NCBI GenBank assembly: GCA_963204835.1
Contig: CAUJHJ010000048.1
Coordinates: forward strand, 1-64,000
DNA from: Pseudomonadota bacterium
GTDB taxonomy: Bacteria > Pseudomonadota > Gammaproteobacteria > Steroidobacterales > Steroidobacteraceae
Direction: 5' to 3'
DNA length: 64,000 bases
The notes below the pieces were generated by a model that was given only the letters and a program-made list of their open reading frames with translations, ran no database searches and was not told the DNA's origin. The position numbers were made by a program, and so were the translations under genes. Shown here piece after piece: positions 57,785 to 64,000 of this stretch (positions are counted from its first letter, which is position 1; each line of letters begins with the position of its first letter).

Positions 57785-58551
57785 CGCAGGTACTCCCGCG
57801 TCCGCGGCCACGTGCGAGGCAGGAGCCGATCGGCGGGCACGATGTCGGGCGCGACCTTCGCGGGGCAGAACTCGCGCAGACGCGGTTCAAAGAGAGACAG
57901 CGGCGGAGTGAGCGGTTGCAGCAGCGCCGTCACCGGCGTCAGGACCCGCAAGGGCGCGAGCCCCCGCACCCGCGCGGAGACCTGCCGGCTGTCCTCGGCA
58001 GCCCAGGCATCGCCGAGCACGCTCACCTCTGCGGACAGCATGAAGCGCTGGGGCAGGAAAGGGAGGCTGACGCCCGCGAGCGGCACACGCACCGTCGCTC
58101 GCGCCGGTCCCCCGGCACGCAGGTCGAAACGGCCCGGCGCGAGCGGCGCTGCGGGCGCCACCAGTGCGAGTGCCGCCTTGCTCGCCGTGCCGGCGAGCCC
58201 GGCCAGCGGCGAGCTCCGGGTCGAAACCGATACACGGCCGGGCGCGGGAAGCCACTGCGCGCGTGTCGCCGGATCGAACCACAGCCCGGGATAGATGCCC
58301 CACTGCCGGGACTGCGTGGCCGAGTTCACCGGTCCCGGCGCCGCATCAAAGATGAAGCGGCGCGCGCGACCTTCCAGGGTGGCGGCTCCCTCGGGCGCGA
58401 GCGCGCGATCGAACGCCGCGTAGCGTGCCGCCGCCTGCGTCGTCGCGGCGAGGTCCTGCAGGCCCGCATAGGCCATCAGCCCGAGCCACAGCGGAACGAG
58501 GCCCAGCACCACGACCAGCATTTCCGCCATGGCCTGGCCGCGCGCGTTCAT
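57778..58551 (-). CDS. TadE-like protein with class III prepilin motif
   Basis: This 257-residue protein reads NARG-QAMAEMLVVVLGLVPLW: leader, G, then E at +5, then a membrane helix. The large periplasmic part is proline/alanine-rich without recognised domains. The ATG at 58551 overlaps the TadG-like stop (ATGA); another at 58563 is possible. It is probably a pseudopilin. Confidence 0.78.
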   Translation of the reverse strand: MNARGQAMAEMLVVVLGLVPLWLGLMAYAGLQDLAATTQAAARYAAFDRALAPEGAATLEGRARRFIFDAAPGPVNSATQSRQWGIYPGLWFDPATRAQWLPAPGRVSVSTRSSPLAGLAGTASKAALALVAPAAPLAPGRFDLRAGGPARATVRVPLAGVSLPFLPQRFMLSAEVSVLGDAWAAEDSRQVSARVRGLAPLRVLTPVTALLQPLTPPLSLFEPRLREFCPAKVAPDIVPADRLLPRTWPRTREYLRC

Positions 58552-59723
58552 GGCGCGAGCCATCGCGGCGAGGTGGCGAGGCGCGCCTGCCAGTAAGGTG
58601 AATAGAGGCTCGCAAGCTCGCGACGGCGGTCGGTACGCGACTCGGCGCGCGCATGGAAAACCCGTGCCGACGAAAGCGCCAGCATGTCCCTGCGGGCCGG
58701 GCCGCCACCGCCCACGGGCACCGCGAGTTCGAGGTCGAGCCGCAGGTCGTTCACCGCCGTGGCTTCGAGCCGGCTCACGTCGCGCATGGCCGGCAGGCCG
58801 CGAAAGAGACGCGAGCTGCGCAGGTCGCGCATCGCGGCTCGCGACGTGCGGCGGTTCACCCGGTAGCTGCCGCCGTGCTCCCCGCGCAGTGAACTGCGCG
58901 GCCCCTGCTCCGCCGCGCCCCAGCCGATCGAGAAGGTTTCACGCCAGTCGAAGAGCAGGCGCTGGTGCAGGGCGAAGGTATCCATGCCGCGCCAGGTGTC
59001 GTAGCCGAGCAGATCGGTGCCGCCGCGCTTCTGCAGCTGCACGATTGCGGCACTGGCCAGCACGGCGCCCCGATCGGCGGTGAAGCGGTCCAGTGAACGA
59101 AGGACGACATCCTTCTGCCGACCACGCTGCGCGCCCCCATAGGCGCGAGTGAGACGGTTCCACTGGCCGGCGTGTACGCCGAAGAAGGCCTGGCCCCGCG
59201 CGCTCGGCACCGCGCCGGGAAAGTTCTCCGCGGCGACGCGCCGCGCAAGATCGAGCGTGGCGGGCGCCGCGGCCCCATGCAGTGCATCGGCGGCACGCGC
59301 AAAGTCGGTGGTGAACACCGCGAGGGTGCCCTCGCCGGCCGCGAGCAACGGCTGCGCGGCACGGTTCACGCCGGACATCACCCGGCTCAGCGCCGTAGTC
59401 GCCGCCCCGAGCCAGGGGACGAAGCGGGCGACCCTGTTCACGCGGCTGACCGTGCGTGTCATGTACTCGAGCCAGGACCGCAGGCTGACCGACTGCGCCA
59501 TGGCGGCCTGGTTCGCGACGATCGCACGGTTCATGTAGCTGTCGAAGTTGAGCACGCGCGCCTCGAAGGTGGCGGCCGACAGCGCCGCGGCATCCGCGGC
59601 GTCGATGAGACGCCGCTTCTGCGCGGCGAGCCGGCCGCCCTCGTGCACGAACAGGGCGGCCGCCGCCAGGCAAGCGAGCACCACGAGGGTGAAAACCACG
59701 GCATGTCCATGCTCGCGCCGCAC
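58548..59723 (-). CDS. TadG-like pilus assembly protein
   Basis: This 391-residue protein has an N-terminal helix (AVVFTLVVLACLAAAALFVHEGG) followed by KRRLIDAADAAALSAAT, the TadG/TadE-like N-terminal block. No von Willebrand A domain is seen in the remainder, so it is shorter than classical TadG. A periplasmic fibre or adhesion role is possible. It lies three bases after the Flp gene. Confidence 0.8.
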   Translation of the reverse strand: MRREHGHAVVFTLVVLACLAAAALFVHEGGRLAAQKRRLIDAADAAALSAATFEARVLNFDSYMNRAIVANQAAMAQSVSLRSWLEYMTRTVSRVNRVARFVPWLGAATTALSRVMSGVNRAAQPLLAAGEGTLAVFTTDFARAADALHGAAAPATLDLARRVAAENFPGAVPSARGQAFFGVHAGQWNRLTRAYGGAQRGRQKDVVLRSLDRFTADRGAVLASAAIVQLQKRGGTDLLGYDTWRGMDTFALHQRLLFDWRETFSIGWGAAEQGPRSSLRGEHGGSYRVNRRTSRAAMRDLRSSRLFRGLPAMRDVSRLEATAVNDLRLDLELAVPVGGGGPARRDMLALSSARVFHARAESRTDRRRELASLYSPYWQARLATSPRWLAP

Positions 59724-59726
59724 GGC

Positions 59727-59972
59727 CTACTGCTCGAAGTCCTGCAGGGTCTTCTGTGCCTGGCCCTCGGTGTTCGAGCGCTGCTGCGCCTGGTTCACCG
59801 CGCCGCGGGCACCGCCGGATTGCGAGCCGGCGAGCGCCGATGCCGCCACCGAGGTCTGTCCGCGCACGATGTCGCCGAATGCCGTGTAGACGCCGATCGC
59901 GGCGACGGCGATGAGCGCCACGATGATGATGTACTCGGTCATGCCCTGACCACGGGAGCTGCGCCTTGTCAT
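59727..59972 (-). CDS. Flp-type pilin
   Basis: This 81-residue prepilin reads RG-QGMTEYIIIVALIAVAAIGVY: G before the cleavage site, E at +5 and Y at +6, then the long hydrophobic helix. The soluble tail is glycine/alanine/glutamine-rich. A GGAGG Shine-Dalgarno lies about eight bases before the ATG, the strongest ribosome site in the locus, fitting the major pilin. It is first in the Tad run. Confidence 0.88.
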   Translation of the reverse strand: MTRRSSRGQGMTEYIIIVALIAVAAIGVYTAFGDIVRGQTSVAASALAGSQSGGARGAVNQAQQRSNTEGQAQKTLQDFEQ

Positions 59973-60082: not shown

Positions 60083-61225
60083 ATGCACACTCGCCGCAAG
60101 TCACTGCGCCTGCTGCCCGCCTGCGCCGCCGCCACGCTCCTTGCCGCCGTGGCCGCGACCGATGCCGCCGTTGCATCGCCGCCGCCCGAAGTGGAGCAGC
60201 TCATCGCGCAACTCGGCCTGAAAGTCGACGCCGTGCCCGTGCGCGAGCGCGCGACCTGGCGGCCGCTGCGCCGGATCGTCGTGCGCGCCAATCTCGCGCC
60301 GCAGGCCGCGCAGTACCTCGCGCCGGTCGCGGCCGGCGCCCATATCGTCGTGGCGGCCACGCCTGCCGAGGCGCTGGCGGCGGCACCGGGCGCCGATGCC
60401 TTCCTCGGCTTCTGCGAAGCGGACTTGCTGGCCGCGGCGCCCGGCACTCGCTGGGTCCAGGCATTCTCGGCCGGCATCGAAAAGTGCGTGGCCCTGCCCG
60501 CCATCCGCACGCGCGGCATCGTCGTCACCAACATGCAGCGCGCGCTCGGCCCGCCCATGGCGGAACACGCGATCGCACTGCTGCTCGCGCTCGCGCGCCA
60601 CCTCGATGTCTACATCGCGCGCGGGGCCGCCGGACGCTGGGACGATTCTCCCGGCCCCGGTGCACCCGTGCAGGTCCTCGCCGGCAAGACATTGCTCGTC
60701 GCCGGCCTCGGCGGCATCGGCACCGAGGTCGCGCGCCTCGCGCACGCGCTCGGCATGCGTGTCATTGCCACGCGCGCATCGGATCGCCCGGGGCCGCCGT
60801 TCGTTGAACAGGTCGGCAAGCCCGCCGACTTGCTCCCTTTTGCCGCGCGCGCCGACGCCGTGGTCGCGGCCCTGCCGCTCACCGCGGAGACGCGCGGCCT
60901 CTTCGATGCGAATTTCTTCGCGGCCATGAGGCGTGGCGCCCTGTTCGTGAACCTCGGCCGTGGCGCGAGCGTCGTGACCGGCGACCTCGTCGCTGCGCTC
61001 GCTAGTGGACAGGTCGGCGGCGCCGGGCTCGACGTGACCGATCCCGAGCCCCTGCCGCCCGGCCATCCGTTGTGGCGCGCGCCGCGCACGATCATCACGC
61101 CGCACATGTCAGCGACCACCGATGCCGACGAGGGCCATCGTCGCAGGATCGTGCGCGAGAACCTGCGGCGCTGGCAGGCGGGTGAGGCGCTGCTTTCGGT
61201 GGTCGATGTCGAACGCGGCTATTGA
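60083..61225 (+). CDS. D-2-hydroxyacid dehydrogenase with a Tat-like signal peptide
   Basis: This 380-residue NAD-dependent dehydrogenase has the Rossmann motif GLGGIGTE and catalytic R, E and H in NLGRG, DPEPLPPGHP and TPHMSA. The first 32 residues look like an export signal: TRRKSLRLLPA followed by a hydrophobic stretch and AVA before SPPP. The twin arginine suggests Tat export with cofactor bound. A cytoplasmic start inside the domain is possible but no better Shine-Dalgarno was seen. It overlaps the next hydrolase gene by 20 bases. Confidence 0.85.
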   Translation: MHTRRKSLRLLPACAAATLLAAVAATDAAVASPPPEVEQLIAQLGLKVDAVPVRERATWRPLRRIVVRANLAPQAAQYLAPVAAGAHIVVAATPAEALAAAPGADAFLGFCEADLLAAAPGTRWVQAFSAGIEKCVALPAIRTRGIVVTNMQRALGPPMAEHAIALLLALARHLDVYIARGAAGRWDDSPGPGAPVQVLAGKTLLVAGLGGIGTEVARLAHALGMRVIATRASDRPGPPFVEQVGKPADLLPFAARADAVVAALPLTAETRGLFDANFFAAMRRGALFVNLGRGASVVTGDLVAALASGQVGGAGLDVTDPEPLPPGHPLWRAPRTIITPHMSATTDADEGHRRRIVRENLRRWQAGEALLSVVDVERGY

Positions 61226-61985
61226 GCTCGATCCGCAGTCCCGCGGCGACGTCGACCGCCCGCCCTTGCTGCTGCTGCACGCGCTCGGCAGCTCGCTCGC
61301 GATGTGGGACGCGCAGGTCGCGGCGCTCGAGCCGTATTTTCATCTCGTCCGCTACTCCCTGCGCGGCCATGGTGCCTCGGCCCGCGCCGGCGTGGAGGAG
61401 TCGGACATTGCCGCACTGGCCGCCGATGCCTGTGCGGTGCTCGACCGCCTTGGCATCGAACGCGCGCACTGGTGCGGCCTGTCGCTCGGCGGCATGGTGG
61501 CGATGCGCGCCGCGATCCACACACCCGGTCGCGTCGACCGGCTGGTGCTCGCCAACACCGCCGCCCATATGCCGCCGGCGGCCGCCTGGTCGGAGCGGAT
61601 GGCGCTCGTGCGCCATGGCGGCATGGAGCCGCTCGCCGAACCCACGATGGCACGCTGGTTCACGCCGGCATTCCGGCAGCGCGCACCCTGCGAAGTCGGG
61701 CGCATCCGGAAGATCTTCCTCGGCACGGATCCCGCCAGCTACGCGGCGGCCTGCGCCGCCATCCGCGACCTGGACCTGCGCGCCGATCTCGCCCGCATCG
61801 GCGCGCCGACGCTGCTGCTGGCGGGCGCCCACGATGCCGGCGTGCCGCCCGCCCGAATGGCCGAAATGCAGGCCGCCATCTGCGGCGCCCGCCTCGTGAC
61901 CCTCGATGCCGCCCATCTCTCGAACATCGAGGCGTGCGCGGAGTTCACCGCCGCGCTGTGCACGCACCTCGGCGTCAGCCCGTGA
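61206..61985 (+). CDS. Alpha/beta hydrolase, 3-oxoadipate enol-lactonase-like
   Basis: This 259-residue hydrolase has LLLLHALGSSLAMWD, the nucleophile elbow GLSLGGMV, the acid-loop LLAGAHDAGVPP and a C-terminal histidine in DAAHLSNIEA. PcaD-type lactonases are the closest match, but a general esterase is possible. The ATG at 61206 lies inside the 3' end of the dehydrogenase, indicating coupling. It converges on the sensor kinase, overlapping by 11 bases. Confidence 0.85.
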   Translation: MSNAAIELDPQSRGDVDRPPLLLLHALGSSLAMWDAQVAALEPYFHLVRYSLRGHGASARAGVEESDIAALAADACAVLDRLGIERAHWCGLSLGGMVAMRAAIHTPGRVDRLVLANTAAHMPPAAAWSERMALVRHGGMEPLAEPTMARWFTPAFRQRAPCEVGRIRKIFLGTDPASYAAACAAIRDLDLRADLARIGAPTLLLAGAHDAGVPPARMAEMQAAICGARLVTLDAAHLSNIEACAEFTAALCTHLGVSP

Positions 61986-63399
61986 GCGGTGTCGGCGGCT
62001 CGCTGAAGTAGTCCGGCTCGAGCGGGACGGCGCCCACGGTCAAGGTCGGCAAGGTCAGCGTGACTTCGAGGCCGCCCGCGGGCAGGTTGCGCGCCCTGGC
62101 GGCGCCTCGGTGCAGCCGCATGGCCCGCGCGACGATCGCGAGCCCGAGACCCGAGCCGCCCGGCTGGCGCATGCGCGCATCGTCCATGCGGAAGAACGGT
62201 TCGAAGATGTGCTCGAGCGCATCCACCGGCACGCCGGGGCCGCGGTCCTGCACGATGATCGCGGCCTCCCCGCCCTGCACCCGCAGCCGCACGTCGATAT
62301 GCGTGCCCTCGGAGGTGTGATGGATGGCATTGCGCAGCACGTTCTGCAGCGCGCTGCCGAGGATCATCGGGCTGCCGTAGACCTGCACCTCGAGGCCCTC
62401 GGCATCCAGCAGCCCGAGCACGCAGTGGCGCTGCGCGGCCTCGAGCTGCGCATCCTCGACCACCTCTTCGACGAACGGCGCCAGCGCGATGCGCTGGAAC
62501 TTCGGTGGCGCCGACATCGCGTCGAGCCTCGAGAGGCTCAGGATGGACCCAATCATGTGGTCGAGCCGGTCGACCTGTTGCTGCAGGCGCGCGACATCGC
62601 CCTCCAGCCGGCCGTCCGGGTCGCGCCGGCGCAGCAGCTCGAGCGCCACGTTGAGGCGCGCGAGCGGCGTACGCAACTCATGCGACATGTCGCGAACCAG
62701 CCGGTCGCGGGCCTTCAGCAAGTGCCCGAGGCGCCCCGCCATCGCGGTGAAATCGCGGGCAAGCGCGCCAAGTTCGTCGTTGCGCGCGATCACGCGGCCG
62801 CTGACCTCGGGCGCCGCGAGGCCCGCGGCAAACGAACGGGTGGCGCGCGCGAGCTCGCGGATCGGCCGGCTGAAGCTGCGCGCGAGGATGCCGGCTACGG
62901 CGCCGCTCATCAGGATGGCGAGCGCGATCAGCAGGATCGGCAACTGCTTGATGCCGACGCCGTCCCACCAGGATGGATTGCGCTCGACGAGATACACCGC
63001 GAAACGCCGCCCATCCGCCAGCTGCACCTGCGGAATCCAGCGGGAGGCGTACAGGGAGCGTGAGCGGTCGGCCGGGTCCAGCTTGAGGACGGCCGGCGTG
63101 CGCATCGCAAGGCCTGCGGGCACCGCGCGGCCGATGAGGTCGGCACCTGTGCTGTCGACAACGAGCACCTGCATGTGGCCCGGGCGCGCCTCCTCGGCGC
63201 GCAACCAGTCACGCAGCGCCGGCTCGCCACCCCGGTCGATCGCGGCGGCGGCGGCGGCGGCGACATGCGCCGCATCCTGTCCCGCGAGCCGCTCGATGCG
63301 CTCGCTCACCATCAGGAAGCTGACCGCCGTGCCGAGACCGAGCATCAGCAGGCTCGCGATGCTGACCGTGAGGAAGATCCGGCCGTAGACGCTCTTCAC
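61975..63399 (-). CDS. CpxA-like sensor histidine kinase
   Basis: This 474-residue kinase has membrane segments near residues 8-30 and 165-185 around a periplasmic sensor, a HAMP domain, the H-box MSHELRTPLARLN, N-box LRNAIHH and G-boxes DRGPGVP and GSGLGLAI. The start is GTG, overlapping the regulator stop (GTGA). The CpxA resemblance is from HAMP/H-box context; the signal is unknown. Confidence 0.88.
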   Translation of the reverse strand: MKSVYGRIFLTVSIASLLMLGLGTAVSFLMVSERIERLAGQDAAHVAAAAAAAIDRGGEPALRDWLRAEEARPGHMQVLVVDSTGADLIGRAVPAGLAMRTPAVLKLDPADRSRSLYASRWIPQVQLADGRRFAVYLVERNPSWWDGVGIKQLPILLIALAILMSGAVAGILARSFSRPIRELARATRSFAAGLAAPEVSGRVIARNDELGALARDFTAMAGRLGHLLKARDRLVRDMSHELRTPLARLNVALELLRRRDPDGRLEGDVARLQQQVDRLDHMIGSILSLSRLDAMSAPPKFQRIALAPFVEEVVEDAQLEAAQRHCVLGLLDAEGLEVQVYGSPMILGSALQNVLRNAIHHTSEGTHIDVRLRVQGGEAAIIVQDRGPGVPVDALEHIFEPFFRMDDARMRQPGGSGLGLAIVARAMRLHRGAARARNLPAGGLEVTLTLPTLTVGAVPLEPDYFSEPPTPLTG

Positions 63400-64000
63400 G
63401 CCGGCGCGCCCGGGTCCATGGCATAGCCCGCGCCGCGCACGCCGCGGATCTCCGGCGCGTCCTCGCCGAGCTTGCGGCGCAGGTTCGCCACGTGCGTGTC
63501 GATGCTGCGGTCGAATGCCTCGAGCGGCCGGCCGAGCGCGCGTTCGCACAGCAGCTGCCGGCTCACCACCTGCCCGGCCGAACGCGCGAGCTCCTCGAGC
63601 ACGCGCGCCTCGGCGCCGGTGAGCGTGACCTCGCGTCCCGCGACCGCTGCGCGGCCGCGCGCCAGGTCGAGTACCAGCGCCCCGACCGTGAGCAGCCGCT
63701 CGGCGGGCCCGGCGGCGCTGGCCGTCGGCCGGCGCAGGATGGCGCGGATGCGCGCGATGAGTTCACGCGGGTGGAAGGGCTTTGCGAGGTAGTCGTCCGC
63801 ACCCACCTCGAGGCCGACGATCCGGTCGACGGCTTCGCCGCGCGCGGTCAGCATGAGGACAGGCAAGGCGCTGCGCCGGCGCAGCGTGCGCAGCACGTCG
63901 AACCCGCTCATGCCCGGCAGCATCACGTCGAGCACCGCGAGGTCGACCCTGTGCTGCTCGACATGCGCGAGCGCGGCGGGGCCCGAGTGCGCGCTCGCCA
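63396..64000 (-). CDS. CpxR-like response regulator (partial)
   Basis: The OmpR-family regulator is cut by the window end, so its N-terminus is missing. The phosphoacceptor aspartate is in LAVLDVMLPG, followed by TAR, KPF and a winged-helix domain ending in NLRRKLGEDAPEIRGVRGAGY. It is paired with the downstream sensor kinase. Confidence 0.88.
   Translation of the reverse strand, partial: ASAHSGPAALAHVEQHRVDLAVLDVMLPGMSGFDVLRTLRRRSALPVLMLTARGEAVDRIVGLEVGADDYLAKPFHPRELIARIRAILRRPTASAAGPAERLLTVGALVLDLARGRAAVAGREVTLTGAEARVLEELARSAGQVVSRQLLCERALGRPLEAFDRSIDTHVANLRRKLGEDAPEIRGVRGAGYAMDPGAPA

Follow-up and report, generated by a model that had tools for sequence, protein, structure and literature searches.

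A predicted exported D-2-hydroxyacid dehydrogenase-family protein with a conserved leader and cysteine pair in Steroidobacteraceae

Introduction

The common view of dinucleotide-dependent dehydrogenases places them in the cytoplasm, unless they are exported by the Tat pathway with the cofactor already bound. A locus in the stretch of 64,000 nucleotides analysed here (the window), from a genome of the family Steroidobacteraceae, raises the question of whether a member of the D-2-hydroxyacid dehydrogenase family could work outside the cytoplasm and, if so, by which route it would get there and how it would be supplied with a nucleotide. A first-pass annotation of this DNA had proposed a Tat-exported, NAD-dependent dehydrogenase acting in one pathway with the lactonase-like hydrolase encoded by the overlapping gene. 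Below, we weigh the export, the route, the proposed chemistry and the gene pairing against the homologues of both proteins.

Results and discussion

The gene encodes an intact D-2-hydroxyacid dehydrogenase-family domain

Both domain profiles of the D-2-hydroxyacid dehydrogenase superfamily match the predicted protein (Table 1) above their curated cut-offs, PF02826 on residues 164–343 (E 2.7e-49; 167.4 bits, cut-off 25.1) and PF00389 with an E-value of 7.6e-10 (39 bits, cut-off 24.6). The nucleotide-binding GxGxxG motif (GLGGIG, residues 208–213) and the catalytic Arg/Glu/His residues (R293, E322 and H341) are all present, so the intact cofactor site and catalytic triad described in the first-pass annotation are borne out. 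Residue R231 is kept in 75 of 76 clade members and suggests a preference for NADP(H) over NAD(H). The protein scored far below every NCBIfam cut-off when compared with the named equivalogs SerA, GhrA, GhrB, PdxB, VanH and Dhydh_Halo, the top model being that of the haloarchaeal D2-HDH (NF041369; 176.7 bits against a cut-off of 400).

An AlphaFold2 model of the protein had a mean pLDDT of 91.9 and a pTM of 0.86, with poor prediction in the leader only, and its top Foldseek matches were human GRHPR (2gcg) and the Haloferax D2-HDH (5mh5). These two, together with 3hg7 and 8hpg, which are the best sequence matches, are the nearest solved structures; this group of GhrA, Haloferax D2-HDH and GRHPR proteins shares with the window protein the two-domain fold, the GxGxxG motif and the Arg/Glu/His residues, at TM-scores of 0.83–0.88 by target length. 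None of the proteins in this group is known to have a leader. Between leader and domain, the window protein has a segment that contains a helix (residues 35–44 in the model) and that follows a loose family pattern, LIxxLGLxExxxPVRERxGW, in the consensus of a 51-sequence alignment (A1).

Table 1. Positions in the window of the two genes and of the sites discussed in the text.
Feature	Position	Strand	Basis or remark
D-2-hydroxyacid dehydrogenase-family protein, predicted exported, 380 aa	60083..61225	+	ORF, ATG start, PF02826 and PF00389
N-terminal leader, residues 1–31, likely Sec-type	60083..60175	+	Sequence; leader conserved in 69 members
Twin arginine R4-R5	60092..60097	+	In the window; 10/69 leaders against 7.0 expected by shuffling
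Pre-domain segment, residues 32–63, from leader to first beta strand	60176..60271	+	A1 consensus
C111	60413..60415	+	Invariant in A1; absent there in all leaderless relatives of the residue table
C135, possible disulphide partner of C111	60485..60487	+	Invariant in A1
Dinucleotide-binding motif GLGGIG, residues 208–213	60704..60721	+	Alignment and residue table
R231, just past beta strand 226–230	60773..60775	+	Residue table
Catalytic R293	60959..60961	+	Alignment and residue table
Catalytic E322	61046..61048	+	Alignment and residue table
Catalytic H341	61103..61105	+	Alignment and residue table
Leaderless alpha/beta hydrolase, 259 aa, PcaD-like, neighbour of the dehydrogenase	61206..61985	+	Abhydrolase_1, TIGR02427

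The leader is conserved throughout the family and predicts export

The protein starts with the leader MHTRRKSLRLLPACAAATLLAAVAATDAAVA, followed by SPPPE, in which an n-region (TRRKSL, including R4-R5) is succeeded by a hydrophobic h-region and a cleavage-like A29-V30-A31 (A-x-A after residue 31). L001 and L003, the other two clear members of the enzyme family in this genome, have no such leader in the frame examined. Homologues were sampled from 59 genomes, with the gene occurring in 5 of 7 genomes of the genus and, at E <= 1e-55, in 62 of 217 genomes and 13 of 25 genera of the family; one homologue (L019/L048) was left out, its match running past an upstream stop. N-termini were read in 69 family members, the window protein among these, and all 69 carried a leader, as did seven further clade members from named genomes. 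Homologues starting directly at the domain, which the first-pass annotation had named as the observation that would count against export, were thus not encountered among the 69, and the leaderless relatives are all distant.

Every one of the 69 leaders contains a hydrophobic stretch, with a best 12-residue hydropathy of 1.31 to 3.18 (median 2.37; 2.18 in the window protein), and 68 have an A-x-A-like site. The leader is not a chance feature, because aligning the upstream regions of five congeneric sequences shows the equivalent ATG to be an invariant column. Start codons were picked by hand among candidates, a procedure biased toward leaders; this bias is limited, since the ATG is conserved in congeners and leaderless relatives examined in the named-genome set have no comparable hydrophobic stretch. 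The n-region is positively charged in 59 of 69 leaders, and in 64 of 69 members its charge is more positive than that of the segment behind the h-region, a positive-inside (N-in/C-out) pattern that places the enzyme domain outside. In our judgement, which was not computed, the window protein is very probably exported, although its enzyme family is normally cytoplasmic, and this part of the first-pass proposal holds.

Anchoring of the window protein as a lipoprotein was considered and rejected, as its leader has no lipobox and even a loose lipobox pattern was matched by only 3 of the 69 leaders. In two leadered relatives from Planctomycetota (L135 and L139), the leader ends in the lipoprotein-like LLGAC and LAAC, which count as a further Sec-type sign.

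Export is more probably by Sec than by Tat

The first-pass annotation had read TRRKSL as a convincing Tat signal. The hexapeptide and the leader are there, but the motif is not convincing as a Tat motif: the pattern used by TatP, RR.[FGAVML][LITMVF], covers 97% of that program's training set (PMC1182353), and RRKSL fails it by having Ser at the +2 position, where F, G, A, V, M or L is expected. The proposed check, an alignment of N-termini among homologues, revealed a conserved leader in all 69 members without conservation of the twin arginine, which occurs in 10 of the 69 n-regions against 7.0 expected when each n-region is shuffled and is missing from all four congeners (MRTHSV.., MRSRLQ.., MKSRIA.., MHRLIV..). 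It is not the twin arginine that the dehydrogenase family conserves, as judged from these sequences. Pfam TAT_signal likewise had no match in the window leader, while the same model did pick up three Tat-type leaders of neighbouring genes, with 14.9, 20.0 and 12.2 bits, none of which reaches the gathering score.

The strongest competing explanation is that Tat exports the dehydrogenase folded around NADP(H), in the manner of glucose-fructose oxidoreductase, and that the twin arginine of the window protein is functional. R4-R5 is preceded by T and has L at +3, the genome encodes TatC, and the TatP pattern fits the leaders of three relatives (L090, L111 and L119). According to a review that also cites the glucose-fructose oxidoreductase precedent, twin arginines are not strictly essential, so that Tat accepts some leaders lacking them, some Sec leaders engage Tat, and twin arginines are rare among Sec leaders of E. 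coli (PMC7317946). Glucose-fructose oxidoreductase serves as a works-like comparison only: it is an exported NADP(H) enzyme with no need of free cofactor and a true Tat substrate, but it belongs to another fold family (Gfo/Idh/MocA), whereas the dehydrogenase family has no conserved twin arginine.

Sec transports unfolded proteins, and a Sec-delivered dehydrogenase would therefore have to pick up its cofactor outside, which is a difficulty for the Sec reading. Folded export by Tat would remove this difficulty, yet it conflicts with the leader evidence set out above, and we regard it as unlikely. Sec is, in our judgement rather than by calculation, the probable export route of the window protein.

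An invariant cysteine pair marks the clade of the window protein

The mature window protein has two cysteines, C111 and C135, and no others. Both are invariant in the 51-sequence alignment A1, and they occur together in 68 of 69 family members and in all seven extra clade members, but in none of 52 leaderless relatives. Cysteine counts in leaderless relatives range from 0 to 11. The solved GhrA, Haloferax D2-HDH and GRHPR structures also lack the pair in alignments, unlike the window protein. Exactly two domain cysteines are found in 49 of the 68 pair-bearing members, and the remaining 19 have a third, always at position 263. Even cysteine counts are frequent in extracytoplasmic proteins and are a recognised sign of dependence on the Dsb system (PMC5403849), of which DsbB is encoded in the genome. 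In the AlphaFold2 model, the two residues lie in loops or short helices after strands 106–108 and 124–126, a placement compatible with a disulphide. A leader and a conserved cysteine pair, the combination taken here to mark an exported protein with a disulphide, are thus both found in the dehydrogenase, and the invariance of the pair in the clade of the window protein, together with its absence from the 52 leaderless relatives, suggests a C111–C135 disulphide formed outside the cytoplasm.

Leadered dehydrogenases cluster in the family tree

In a scan of named genomes, leadered relatives were found in Gammaproteobacteria, Acidobacteriota, Planctomycetota, Verrucomicrobiota and one Marinimicrobia bin, whereas the leaderless ones came from Bacillota, Actinomycetota, Alphaproteobacteria and Chloroflexota, among other groups. 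A tree of 128 rows, computed after removal of the leader and of both cysteine columns, required two changes of the leader label, compared with about 40 for shuffled labels, showing that leadered proteins cluster. The branch joining all of them has an SH-aLRT support of 94. A single origin of the leadered dehydrogenases is likely, short of proof because this value comes without a bootstrap and the branch also takes in four leaderless long-branch rows. The sub-clade with the cysteine pair is supported at an SH-aLRT of 99, and leadered proteins of Acidobacteriota and Planctomycetota outside it have no such pair; for this reason, the pair seems to have been added later and not to be a precondition for export. 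We found no description of a clade of exported 2-hydroxyacid dehydrogenases in the literature, a weak negative given that subscription journals lay mostly outside the search.

It could also be supposed that the exported protein is no longer a working dehydrogenase but a binding or structural derivative. A leadered sister group (L061:5197-6366, L062:7789-8940, L063:2153-3301 and L125:2236-3375) has indeed lost the catalytic Glu and His (replaced by T/A and W) while retaining the leader and the nucleotide motif. Against this, the clade of the window protein shows no variation at R293, at H341 or at the GxGxxG glycines and almost none at E322, and nearly all of its members keep GLGGIG, which makes loss of activity there quite improbable. 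At two of the sister-group loci (L062 and L063), the gene comes after a thiamine-pyrophosphate enzyme with a Tat leader and a cytochrome c, and a third (L125) has an upstream gene whose product carries a Tat-type leader.

Still less credible is an ordinary cytoplasmic glyoxylate/2-oxoacid reductase whose leader is unused or is a mere tether. Internal GTG codons at residues 37, 51 and 53 are conceivable starts for a leaderless form, and the relatives identified among solved structures are ordinary dehydrogenases; set against these are the universal presence of the leader, the ATG conserved among congeners, the N-in/C-out charge pattern and a cysteine pair that is missing from leaderless relatives.

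A proposed envelope oxidoreductase with bound NADP(H)

We propose, with a rough probability of 0.55, that the dehydrogenase is an envelope 2-hydroxyacid/2-oxoacid oxidoreductase whose bound NADP(H) is recycled by a second substrate. The leader would take the protein across the inner membrane, most likely by Sec, like its relatives, and oxidation of C111 and C135 to a disulphide would follow export. The mature protein would then bind NADP(H) at the GLGGIG/R231 site and interconvert 2-hydroxyacids and 2-oxoacids by means of the usual Arg/Glu/His residues. The cofactor may stay bound and be recycled on the enzyme by a second substrate, either a 2-oxoacid or a 2-hydroxyacid, a scheme favoured because no free, regenerated pool of NADP(H) is expected outside the cytoplasm.

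The analogy for this last step is PdxB (4-phosphoerythronate dehydrogenase), a cytosolic enzyme of the same superfamily; the PdxB model NF001309 gives the window protein 47 bits against a cut-off of 434. Its NAD is non-exchangeable and is regenerated by 2-oxoacids (PMC5264612). By analogy, we judge, again without computing it, that such cycling in the dehydrogenase is plausible at somewhat below even odds.

Directly upstream of the dehydrogenase, at a distance of 4–11 bases, three loci (L045, L053 and L090) encode a leadered NmrA-like NAD(P)-binding protein matching PF13460, and in L045 and L090 also PF05368; these form a second apparently exported nucleotide-binding family. At a fourth locus (L088), the gene in this place encodes an aldo-keto reductase (PF00248) whose leader, with SRRQVLAGG, is of the classic Tat type. 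The cases are few and, for NAD(P) chemistry in the envelope, suggestive.

A wider reading, which we put forward tentatively and consider possible but doubtful, is that a clade spanning several phyla has long been outside the cytoplasm, delivered unfolded by Sec and either acquiring and holding NADP(H) in the envelope or using another redox partner. If true, it would, together with the exported NmrA-like and aldo-keto reductase neighbours in some genomes, mean nucleotide-linked redox chemistry in the periplasm. A large clade with Sec-looking leaders and an added cysteine pair makes the rule that such enzymes leave the cytoplasm only by Tat with cofactor bound directly testable. Should the dehydrogenase work outside, the plain annotation 'D-2-hydroxyacid dehydrogenase' puts its metabolism in the wrong compartment.

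The hydrolase is probably a cytoplasmic passenger

The hydrolase encoded next to the dehydrogenase matches Abhydrolase_1 (E 9.3e-25) and resembles 3-oxoadipate enol-lactonase (PcaD), matching the solved PcaD 2xua (E 8.4e-52) and scoring near, but just below, the cut-off of the PcaD model TIGR02427 (255.2 bits against 255.85); in addition, no match to an intradiol dioxygenase (PF00775) was detected in the genome, which is 92% complete. Its likely start, ATG 61206, gives a 20-base overlap with the dehydrogenase, while in three congeners the two genes lie about 3 bases apart without overlapping. In none of the four species in which the genes are adjacent (the window and these three congeners) does the protein carry a leader, and the hydrolase was adjacent to the dehydrogenase at none of the other 65 loci examined, a fourth congener included. 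Leaderless, restricted in its adjacency to the genus and found in a genome with no detected intradiol dioxygenase, the hydrolase is read as probably a cytoplasmic passenger on the same transcript. The coupling advanced in the first-pass annotation, one pathway in which the hydrolase opens a lactone or ester product, can appeal to the overlapping genes and to the adjacency seen in three of the four dehydrogenase-bearing congeners, but distribution and compartment are both against it and we reject it as barely credible. A conserved operon as a clue to the substrate was likewise rejected, the neighbours of the dehydrogenase varying between lineages.

Divergent from the dehydrogenase, on the minus strand of the window (58548–59970), lie genes for a small Flp-pilin-like protein (GQGMTEYIIIVALIAVAAIGVYTAFG) and a 391-residue protein with an N-terminal hydrophobic segment, a pair that adjoins the dehydrogenase in all four congeners having it. 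On the other side, also on the minus strand (61975–63998), sensor kinase-like and response regulator-like open reading frames converge on the hydrolase.
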